Assembly: GCA_022709695.1 (NCBI GenBank)
Contig: JAKLII010000007.1
Location: 62,001-126,000 of the forward strand
Direction: 5' to 3'
Source of the DNA: Bacteroidota bacterium
GTDB lineage: Bacteria; Bacteroidota; Bacteroidia; Bacteroidales; SKPS01
Length of the DNA: 64,000 bases
The notes beneath the pieces were generated by a model. The model was not told the origin of the DNA. It did not search any database and was given only the letters and a program-made list of their open reading frames with translations. How positions within the stretch are numbered: position 1 is the first letter of the stretch; the number at the start of each line of letters is the position of its first letter. A program made the translations under genes and the position numbers. This document shows, piece by piece, positions 41,947 through 44,466 of this stretch.

Positions 41947-42609
41947 TTACATCACCGTTGCCACGGAATCACGAAGCTGGAGATATCGTTCGTAAGCACC
42001 CGAAAACGCCATCCGGTATTGTACCACCTGATCAAACAACCCCATCTCAGTCAACATCATCTCGCAGGTTTCACGCAGGGCGCCCTCACCGGCCTGATGG
42101 CCCGGCATATAGTCAAAAAGCCCGTTGGCTACTACCCACTTCCGCGTGGCCATGGCAGAGGGGTGCGCAAAGAAAATTCTCACTCCGGCCAGCTTTGCAG
42201 CCCCCAGATCAATGATATCGTCAAAGAAGAAAGCAATTTCTTCAGGTTCAATATGGTAAGTAGTGCAAAGAGCTTTTAATGCCAGATCTTTCTGCTTGAT
42301 ACCGGTTACCACACTGTGGAAATGCTCCCTGCGTGCATACAATTCGGCCATCTCATTCCTCGCACCGGAAATAATGGCGGCAACCGGCAGCGTTTCCCCA
42401 TCCCTGAGCCAGAATGCAAACCTCAGCAGGTTTACCCCCATGGAATCGGGTTCTGAAAAACCACTGTGTCCGGCCTGGGTTTTCTCCCCTTTGTTGAAAA
42501 CACCGTCCCAATCGAAAACCAGCGCTTTCACCTTTCGCAACGAGTTCCTGAACGCTTCAGGGTCTTTTGCAAAAACACCGGGATAACCGCCCAAACCCGT
42601 TACACTCAT
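41947..42609 (-). CDS. KdsC-like HAD phosphatase, divergent
   Basis: 220-residue HAD-superfamily phosphatase. Motif I FDWDGVF, motif II IISGARN, motif III Lys in GIKQKDLA, motif IV FFDDIIDL; the spacing without a cap resembles KdsC, which removes phosphate from Kdo 8-phosphate. It is longer than usual KdsC (about 170-190) with an insertion after motif I and an extra C-terminal helix pair. Its ATG overlaps the aldolase-CBS stop by four bases (ATGA). Its substrate is probably the phosphorylated 3-deoxy-ulosonate made upstream, but the divergence leaves room for a different sugar. Confidence 0.82.
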   Translation of the reverse strand: MSVTGLGGYPGVFAKDPEAFRNSLRKVKALVFDWDGVFNKGEKTQAGHSGFSEPDSMGVNLLRFAFWLRDGETLPVAAIISGARNEMAELYARREHFHSVVTGIKQKDLALKALCTTYHIEPEEIAFFFDDIIDLGAAKLAGVRIFFAHPSAMATRKWVVANGLFDYMPGHQAGEGALRETCEMMLTEMGLFDQVVQYRMAFSGAYERYLQLRDSVATVM

Positions 42610-43628
42610 ATCCGTGAGGTATTAAAAAGGTCATGTATGTCCATAATGCCAATGGGCTTGTCCTCCTCTGTCACAACGATATTGTCAATCTTCTTCGCTT
42701 TGAACAACAACGAAGCATTGTAGAGCGACTCATCTGCGTCAATACAAACCGGCATTTTAAGCGAAAGCTCGCACAGCTTTTTGTGAAGGATGTGTTCTCC
42801 TTCATGCTCCAGAAGCCTTCTCAGGTCACCGTCGGTGAAGATCCCTTTAAGGTTTCCGGTTTCATCGGTAATGCTGACGGCACCGAATTTCGACCGGGTC
42901 ATGATCATCAGTGCATCCAGAATGGTTTGATCTGCAGGAATCACAGCTGCCATAGGGGAAATAACCTGCCTGACTTTCAGTGTCATCAGCCGGGTGTGCT
43001 CAAAAAACTGCTGCGTGCCGATGTCGGTGAAATGGTTTCTGAACAGCTGTTGCATTACCTTCCAGGGAATGGTGCAGCAATGTGCCCCCAGGTTAAGGGC
43101 GTTTCTGACGTGTTCTGAATTTCTTACCGATGAAAACATGATCTTTGAGGGATACCGGTAACGGTCAACCACTTCCACGCACTGCCGTATCAGTCCAAGG
43201 GCATCATGCCCTTCGTCCTGTAACCTCCCCACCAGCGGACACACATAGGTGGCTCCGGCTGAAAGGGCCATATAGGCCTGCTGTAACGTGTAAACCAGAT
43301 GGATATTCACCTGATACCCTTTGTTGATCAGGATTCTGCAGGCCTTGATGCCCTCCATCGACACCGGGACCTTGAAAACGGTATGGGCAGGATCCAGGCC
43401 GATGGCGATAAGTCTTTCGGCCTCGCGGATAATCTCATCGGTAGTCTCCCCGAGTGCTTCTACCTGTAACACCGGCACCATGCCGGCCAGTTTCAGAATG
43501 AGCTGATCGATATCGGTCACACCATCCCGGTGCATGAAAGTGGGGGTTGTGGTGAGCCCGGCAATAATCCCAAGGGAAGTTGCCTCTTCAATTTCAGCAA
43601 TATTGGCAGAGTCGAGATAAAGTTCCAT
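42606..43628 (-). CDS. F6P-aldolase/transaldolase-like domain fused to KdsD-type CBS pair
   Basis: 340-residue fusion. Residues 1-~212 are a TalC/FSA-type aldolase: Asp6 and the Schiff-base Lys86 (FKVPVSMEG) are kept, and PLVGR matches the PxVGR segment; but TTNP is TTTP (Thr28) and the Tyr/Phe of PYVNR/PFVGR is Leu132. Residues ~215-340 are a CBS pair with IFTDGDLRR and a closing IxDIHDL, as in arabinose-5-phosphate isomerase KdsD, whose SIS domain is absent. It lies 4 bases after kdsA and overlaps the KdsC-like gene by 4. It may make or alter the sugar phosphate used by the KdsA-like enzyme; activity is not established. Confidence 0.85.
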   Translation of the reverse strand: MELYLDSANIAEIEEATSLGIIAGLTTTPTFMHRDGVTDIDQLILKLAGMVPVLQVEALGETTDEIIREAERLIAIGLDPAHTVFKVPVSMEGIKACRILINKGYQVNIHLVYTLQQAYMALSAGATYVCPLVGRLQDEGHDALGLIRQCVEVVDRYRYPSKIMFSSVRNSEHVRNALNLGAHCCTIPWKVMQQLFRNHFTDIGTQQFFEHTRLMTLKVRQVISPMAAVIPADQTILDALMIMTRSKFGAVSITDETGNLKGIFTDGDLRRLLEHEGEHILHKKLCELSLKMPVCIDADESLYNASLLFKAKKIDNIVVTEEDKPIGIMDIHDLFNTSRI

Positions 43629-43632
43629 GTCT

Positions 43633-44466
43633 TTATGATTTGTATTTGATATTTACGGCATGCATCTCAAGTAATGGCTTGAGGAATTCTTCAAGATCAT
43701 ATATGCAAAGCTGACTTGCAGCATCACATAAGGCTTCGCGGGGATTGGGGTGCGTTTCGATGAACAGGCCATCGACGCCGGCGGCTACACCAGCCCGGGC
43801 CAGTACAGGGAGGTACTCTCTGGCACCTCCGTCAGGATCAGCACTGGGAATCCCGTATTTCCTGATGGAGTGGGTGACATCAAAAATTACAGGATAACCG
43901 GTTTCTGCAAGATGGTAAAAGCTTCTGGGGTCCACTACCAGGTCGTTGTAACCAAAGGTATACCCCCTTTCGGTAAGCAGTATCTTCTGGTTGCCGGTAC
44001 TCTCTACCTTGGCAACAGGTTTCTGCATGTTGGCCGGTGCCAGGAACTGCGCATGCTTCAGGTTGATGGCCTTGCCGGAAGCTGCCGCAGTGAGCACAAG
44101 ATGGGTCTGCATCACCAGGTAGGCGGGTATCTGGATCACATCCAGCACCTCCGCAGCCGGTTGCACATGCTCGGGATAATGGATGTCCGACAACAGCGGA
44201 AAGCCATAGGTTTCTCTGATCCTGGCAAGCATCTGAAGCCCTTTGTCAATCCCCGGACCGTTGTAATACCCTGCCGAACTGCGGTTGTCTTTCATGAACG
44301 AAGACTTGAAAATCACCGGAACAGAAAGCCGTTCAGAAATGATTTTGAGCTTTTCGGCAGTTTCGAACATCACCTTTTCATCTTCCACTACACATGGACC
44401 AGATATCAGAAACAAAGGTTCCGCTCCGCATTGTATCCCGTTGATCTCTATGATTTTTCTGCTCAT
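43633..44466 (-). CDS. kdsA: 3-deoxy-8-phosphooctulonate synthase (KdsA-like)
   Basis: 277-residue aldol-type synthase joining PEP to arabinose 5-phosphate in Kdo synthesis. SGPCVVEDE has Cys25 at the metal ligand place, so it is a metal-dependent class II enzyme; FKSSFMKDNRSS, ERGYTFGYNDLVVD, FDVTHS and FIETHP are the family motifs. The usual RQTD segment of the active site reads MQTH (residues 119-122), an unusual change. It opens a three-gene run with the aldolase-CBS and phosphatase genes. Another 3-deoxy-ulosonate product is possible. Confidence 0.9.
   Translation of the reverse strand: MSRKIIEINGIQCGAEPLFLISGPCVVEDEKVMFETAEKLKIISERLSVPVIFKSSFMKDNRSSAGYYNGPGIDKGLQMLARIRETYGFPLLSDIHYPEHVQPAAEVLDVIQIPAYLVMQTHLVLTAAASGKAINLKHAQFLAPANMQKPVAKVESTGNQKILLTERGYTFGYNDLVVDPRSFYHLAETGYPVIFDVTHSIRKYGIPSADPDGGAREYLPVLARAGVAAGVDGLFIETHPNPREALCDAASQLCIYDLEEFLKPLLEMHAVNIKYKS

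Follow-up and report, generated by a model that had tools for sequence, protein, structure and literature searches.

An aldolase fused to a KdsD-type CBS pair in a kds operon points to a variant route to Kdo

How is the acceptor aldose supplied to KdsA when the protein encoded in the place of KdsD carries an aldolase domain? Kdo is a sugar that the outer membrane cannot do without; almost all Gram-negative bacteria make it, by a pathway regarded as invariant and comprising KdsD, KdsA, KdsC, KdsB and WaaA. The question is raised by a locus in the window, the whole stretch of 64,000 nucleotides analysed here (Bacteroidota bacterium, GCA_022709695.1, contig JAKLII010000007.1, positions 62,001–126,000, forward strand). 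The fusion protein encoded there and its partners point to a hitherto undescribed Kdo route, a variant of the known pathway. The features of the locus, in window positions, are:

43633..44466, minus strand: KdsA' (277 aa), a KDO8P synthase of a distinct clade (PRK05198 331 bits, TIGR01362 310 bits; diagnostic columns; tree).
42606..43628, minus strand: aldolase::CBS fusion (340 aa), proposed to be an aldose-phosphate (arabinose 5-phosphate, A5P) synthase in KdsD's place (Pfam TAL_FSA and two CBS domains; structure model; phylogenetic profile).
42993..43628, minus strand: FSA/transaldolase-type barrel of the fusion, residues 1–212 (86 fusions compared with 24 ordinary TalC; structural matches to TalC).
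42621..42980, minus strand: KdsD-type CBS pair of the fusion, residues ~217–336, with GIFTDGDLRR (the only part matched by TIGR00393/PRK10892; 4o9k; alignment with KdsD CBS).
41947..42609, minus strand: KdsC' (220 aa), a divergent KdsC-like HAD phosphatase (PRK09484 49 bits; motifs in 70 members; neighbourhood).

The three genes are tightly coupled, as an earlier note on this DNA had stated: by their coordinates, a 4-base gap separates kdsA' from the fusion, and the fusion overlaps the kdsC-like gene by 4 bases (ATGA). The architecture given in that note, an F6P-aldolase/transaldolase fold in front of a CBS pair and no SIS domain, is also what Pfam finds: TAL_FSA at residues 3–201 (E 6.9e-35), two CBS domains (E 9.5e-17) and no SIS domain in the protein. 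The KdsD/KpsF models cover only the C-terminal residues ~218–337 (PRK10892 E 6.9e-15, TIGR00393 E 1.5e-14), and the KpsF model positions that align to the fusion, ~156–267, are those of the CBS part only. The fusion scores below the cut-off of every specific (equivalog or subfamily) model, including that of the KdsD/KpsF family (54 vs 203.7 bits) and, by far, that of the TIGR00875 FSA equivalog (166 vs 245.95 bits). A structure model built from 37 relatives has a mean pLDDT of 90.8, and its barrel resembles the TalC transaldolases 1vpx (Thermotoga) and 3r8r (Bacillus) with a TM-score (target) of 0.94; the TAL_FSA fold with the Schiff-base Lys and Asp6 is present according to Pfam, alignment and model. 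More than 80 further loci carry the same fusion, at 55–77% identity, which excludes a chance fusion or an assembly error.

Concerning the C-terminal part, the nearest solved CBS pair is 4o9k (E 1.4e-13), annotated as arabinose 5-phosphate isomerase, which we take to be the CBS pair of KdsD crystallised with CMP-Kdo. Both the models and the alignment with KdsD CBS domains identify the pair with TDGDLRR as KdsD-type. The motif IFTDGDLRR, taken in the earlier note as a mark of KdsD, is common to KdsD; the DIHDL end, named there as a second mark, resembles KdsD only loosely: most relatives of the fusion end in DIQDL, and E. coli KdsD in HMHDL. We propose that the CBS pair is a putative CMP-Kdo sensor, with CMP-Kdo as the presumed ligand. 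The fusion is thus like KdsD/GutQ/KpsF (TIGR00393, PRK10892) in its CBS pair with G(I/V)FTDGDLRR, its location beside kdsA and kdsC in an operon and the presumed supply of A5P to KdsA; unlike them, it lacks the SIS isomerase domain and has a class I aldolase as its catalytic part.

The window genome (G000) is 98% complete. A KdsD protein elsewhere in it, another kdsA or a normal kdsD–kdsA–kdsC set had all been considered in the earlier note; a search with the KpsF model finds no KdsD in this genome, kdsA is present once and no such set exists. The only SIS proteins are, as named from sequence and neighbours, a probable GlmS (613 aa, two domains) and a GmhA-like protein, and since these account for all SIS matches an overlooked kdsD is ruled out. 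The genome has one KdsA, a KdsB over the cut-off and one WaaA, so Kdo synthesis is expected. A gmhA-hddC-gmhB-type cluster (L011:1138-2991; contig C1, 216836-220009) suggests heptose synthesis in this organism.

The same exclusion of KdsD is seen across the phylum. Among 395 Bacteroidota-phylum genomes, six contain the full fusion (the other five are 55–59% identical to the window protein). All six have KdsA and none has KdsD, their weak KpsF matches being to CBS only; of the other KdsA-positive genomes, 278 of 283 have KdsD (Fisher p 6e-10, with kinship ignored). The six carriers span five families, and in four of these (f5, f11, f13 and f18) there are also non-carriers with KdsD. At least two of the five KdsA-positive non-carriers that appear to lack KdsD are doubtful (G358 is 66% complete, and G272 has a weak partial match). 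When 84,980 species genomes were scanned, at least 80 further best loci at 57–77% identity emerged; among the matches listed, the taxa comprise many Bacteroidota families, Desulfobacterales and one bin labelled Proteobacteria. Cultured carriers include Thermonema rossianum DSM 10300 and Flexithrix dorotheae DSM 6795. In an extended set of carrier genomes, KdsD over the cut-off is absent in 45 of 48 (G422, G424 and G426 have it as well), and KdsA is over or just under the cut-off in 47 of 48, the exception being a 1.9-Mb bin. The earlier note had suggested that the fusion may replace KdsD, perhaps through the chemistry discussed below, or may make another aldose phosphate. The replacement is borne out by the missing kdsD of the window genome and the phylum-wide exclusion, and we regard it as highly likely that the fusion supplies the acceptor of KdsA' in place of KdsD; the proposed substrate chemistry agrees with the FsaA literature and with the anatomy of the active site.

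The gene order is widely kept, in line with the arrangement described from the window. Among the 80 listed loci, the gene immediately upstream of the fusion is kdsA' in 53, and in four more kdsA' is no further than 2.5 kb away; the gene immediately downstream is kdsC' in 64, with one more kdsC' at up to 2.5 kb (65/80). In 14 loci, kdsB is found within 2.5 kb. Some listed loci without kdsA end at a contig edge; for a Cytophagales group, in which the fusion stands alone, and for G190, one of the five other carriers of the phylum search, kdsA is found elsewhere in the genome. In the Cytophagales loci (L048, L057, L058, L060, L064 and L098; Thermoflexibacter, Raineya and others), the neighbours of the fusion are unrelated and differ among most genomes. 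At G091 (L014:2606-3114, minus strand), two small genes that appear to be of the HicA/HicB toxin–antitoxin type lie between kdsA' and the fusion, and in several other loci (L088, L111 and L121) 0.7–1.4 kb separates kdsA' from the fusion.

The active-site columns were compared between 86 fusions and 24 ordinary TalC; replaced positions are given in E. coli FSA numbering, and E57 in that of the window protein. D6, E57, K86 (by homology the probable Schiff-base lysine), N108, R135, S167 and R169 are kept in 86/86 fusions. Replaced in all 86 are N28 (Thr), I/L31 (Phe), T109 (His), F/Y131 (Leu), A164 (Phe) and A165 (Ser), and 81 have Cys at position 129; such counts, like those for KdsA' below, come from within one clade and are non-independent. 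The corresponding residues of the window protein are T28, F31, H110, C130, L132, F165 and S166. Thr28 for Asn and Leu132 for Tyr/Phe had been read from the window sequence alone; both are present in every aligned relative, and neither Asn28 nor the Tyr131 of FSA (Phe in TalC) occurs in any fusion. We take the replaced positions to be contacts of the dihydroxyacetone unit and of the catalytic water. As the catalytic residues are kept and those of the pocket replaced, the Schiff-base machinery and the phosphate site are intact and the donor pocket is rebuilt. The changes would fit a two-carbon donor with glyceraldehyde 3-phosphate, and they could also be compatible with other small donors. Compared with FSA/TalC (TIGR00875, PF00923), the fusion has the same fold, Schiff-base Lys, Asp6, Glu57 and phosphate-site arginines, but differs in N28T, T109H, F/Y131L, A165S and A164F in all members, in the fused CBS pair, in its kds operon and in a score under the equivalog cut-off.

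Such substitutions could also mean that the aldolase domain has no catalytic activity, its sole role being that of a scaffold or a CMP-Kdo sensor. We hold this to be the least probable reading and set it aside, given the invariance of D6, E57, K86, R135, S167 and R169 in 86 members and the absence of KdsD from most carriers. It is also very unlikely that we are dealing with an ordinary transaldolase or F6P aldolase whose position in the operon is a coincidence, with A5P coming from an unrecognised isomerase. By count the fusion is indeed the sole TAL_FSA protein, and thus could be the sole housekeeping transaldolase, in the window genome and four others of 32 carriers (G000, G395, G418, G425 and G433, which seem to be without an ordinary transaldolase); however, the other 27 encode an ordinary transaldolase-family protein in addition, so a simple housekeeping role does not account for the fusion. 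The uniquely remodelled pocket, the low FSA equivalog score (166 vs 246 bits) and the restriction of SIS proteins in the window genome to GlmS and the GmhA-like protein also speak against it.

A third possibility is that A5P is formed by transaldolase-type transfer or by retro-aldol cleavage, for example of octulose 8-phosphate to A5P and a dihydroxyacetone unit, with free glycolaldehyde playing no part. The closest family is of the TalC transaldolase type, N108, E57 and R169 are kept, and no free glycolaldehyde would be required. On the other hand, the residues of the dihydroxyacetone pocket and the catalytic water (N28, T109, F/Y131 and A165) are replaced in 86/86 members, and we know of no source of an octulose 8-phosphate-type substrate; we consider this route unlikely.

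The partner KdsA' belongs to the KdsA family (TIGR01362, PRK05198), scoring 331 bits against the PRK05198 cut-off of 242 and, just under the cut-off, 310 against 314 for TIGR01362. It differs from KdsA in forming one distinct clade (support 100/100, long stem) and in having KDNRSS for KANRSS, PAYLxM for PAFLxR and Q205R. A61 is Asp, F117 Tyr, R120 Met and Q205 Arg in all 62 fusion-linked KdsA' sequences, and K139 is His in 61 of them, whereas 25–27 of 27 non-carriers have the canonical residue at these five columns; the changes are one ancestral event on the stem, kept since, not 62 events. The canonical KANRSS and PAFLxR motifs, which belong to A5P recognition, occur in none of the 62. In the window protein, the residues at these columns (canonically A, F, R, K and Q) are D60, Y116, M119, H138 and R202. 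By alignment the arginine of PAFLxR is R106 of A. aeolicus KdsA, which presumably contacts the phosphate of A5P across the subunit interface. In a model of Neisseria KdsA, Phe112 lies within the A5P pocket (PMC6650799), and we equate it with E. coli F117. Judged from these columns, the aldose-binding site of KdsA' is remodelled, with the arginine gained at 205 perhaps making up for the lost R120. KdsC' keeps its HAD motifs in 70 members, namely FDWDGV(FN), TG (SG in the window protein), K and FDD, and scores below both KdsC model cut-offs (49 vs 208 bits and 33 vs 107 bits). KdsC of the canonical type, defined as E below 1e-26, is absent in 10/18 carriers vs 0/15 non-carriers. KdsA' and KdsC' are thus a distinct, co-inherited pair, a point that goes beyond the earlier note.

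These partners give rise to the leading alternative: the fusion replaces KdsD, but the aldose used by KdsA' is not A5P bound as usual, being another aldose, one with a different phosphate position or unphosphorylated arabinose, so that the KdsA'/KdsC' intermediate or the 3-deoxy-ulosonate differs. If the intermediates were A5P and KDO8P, the changes of KdsA', including the lost PAFLxR arginine, and those of KdsC' would not obviously be needed, and both the conserved acceptor-site columns and the frequent lack of a canonical-type KdsC agree with this alternative. Against it stand the R135/R169 phosphate site kept in the aldolase, the usual FSA stereochemistry, which turns glyceraldehyde 3-phosphate and glycolaldehyde into A5P, and the single stem origin of the KdsA' changes, in which one loss may have been balanced by another change (R120M with Q205R). 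The downstream enzymes also speak against it. KdsB is found in 15/15 carriers tested and WaaA in 14/15, and no carrier-specific column, as would be expected for a different end sugar, is present in KdsB (15 carriers, 15 non-carriers) or WaaA (14 and 15) at thresholds of 85% and 70%; the same test on equally small KdsA samples finds 8 columns. Carriers and non-carriers are mixed on the trees: the carrier label changes 6 times for KdsB and 9 times for WaaA (at least 4 each on well-supported branches), and once for KdsA. In the WaaA tree, the carrier G385 groups with non-carriers of its own family.

With KdsA' forming one clade, and KdsB and WaaA having mixed trees and no carrier-specific columns, the end product is very probably Kdo. 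The mixed trees also indicate several transfers of the upstream module into lineages whose own WaaA and, for the most part, KdsB stayed in place, a pattern that an ordinary Kdo end product explains best. So KdsD, KdsA and often KdsC have been displaced more than once by the module of aldolase::CBS, KdsA' and KdsC', the downstream steps being unchanged. That the aldose is not ordinary A5P is accordingly rather doubtful in our view. The same degree of doubt applies to its broader form, in which a mobile three-enzyme module makes Kdo or a Kdo-like sugar through non-textbook intermediates, with a pentose built from two- and three-carbon aldehydes and a KdsA' acceptor other than the usual phosphorylated A5P.

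Our preferred reading is that the fusion makes A5P from glyceraldehyde 3-phosphate and glycolaldehyde, under feedback by CMP-Kdo through the CBS pair. The donor, a small hydroxy-aldehyde and most likely glycolaldehyde, would be bound by Lys86 as a Schiff base. Acid/base catalysis would fall to Asp6 and Glu57, and Arg135 and Arg169 would bind the phosphate group of an acceptor that is most likely glyceraldehyde 3-phosphate. The aldol product, D-arabinose 5-phosphate, would be passed to the co-encoded KdsA', which would add PEP; the phosphatase KdsC' would then yield Kdo, to be activated and transferred by the ordinary KdsB and WaaA of the host. The CBS pair, which KdsD has as well, would most likely bind the end product CMP-Kdo and thus exert feedback on the first committed step. 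A5P as the acceptor handed to KdsA' is probable, and feedback by CMP-Kdo nearly as much so; the complete scheme, whose substrates, product and ligand we infer, is held with a little more belief than doubt.

Since A5P is F6P minus carbon 1, an FSA-type enzyme with the usual stereochemistry and a glycolaldehyde donor would give A5P directly. The earlier note had named this reaction as an in vitro property of FSA-type aldolases, and published activities match: E. coli FsaA converts glycolaldehyde and glyceraldehyde 3-phosphate to Ar5P, with a KM of 0.2 mM and a kcat of 16 per s for glycolaldehyde condensation (PMC6298115), and in engineered cells it performs the Ar5P aldolase step (PMC9947464). 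It is the very reaction that we propose for the fusion. The synthetic Ar5P shunt (FsaA to KdsD) uses it as well, but is man-made and run towards ribulose 5-phosphate, whereas the route of the fusion would be natural and feed Kdo. Among the neighbour genes of loci without an adjacent kdsA there is no hint of a glycolaldehyde source; this counts against the proposal, as do the three carriers that have KdsD as well. In open-access papers we found no earlier description of the fusion or the route, or of CMP-Kdo with CBS domains, which is weak evidence of novelty.

If the proposal is true, FSA-type Ar5P chemistry, so far in vitro or engineered only, would have a natural physiological role, and LPS making in many KdsD-less Bacteroidota and Desulfobacterota would be explained. 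End-product regulation would have moved onto a new catalytic domain. There would also be a bearing on annotation, on drug targeting of KdsD and KdsA, and on the search for a bacterial source of glycolaldehyde.

Some genomes show other combinations. Sphingobacteriales bacterium 44-61 (G426; L087, L131, L156) contains canonical KdsA and KdsD plus the set of KdsA' and the fusion. G023 and G200 are KdsA-positive with neither KdsD nor the fusion, and may have another way to supply the aldose. Intermediate KpsF scores (E 1e-44 to 1e-48) are found in G230, G238, G347 and G351, which belong to the order of the window genome; their arabinose 5-phosphate isomerases possibly consist of the SIS part alone and lack the CBS pair.
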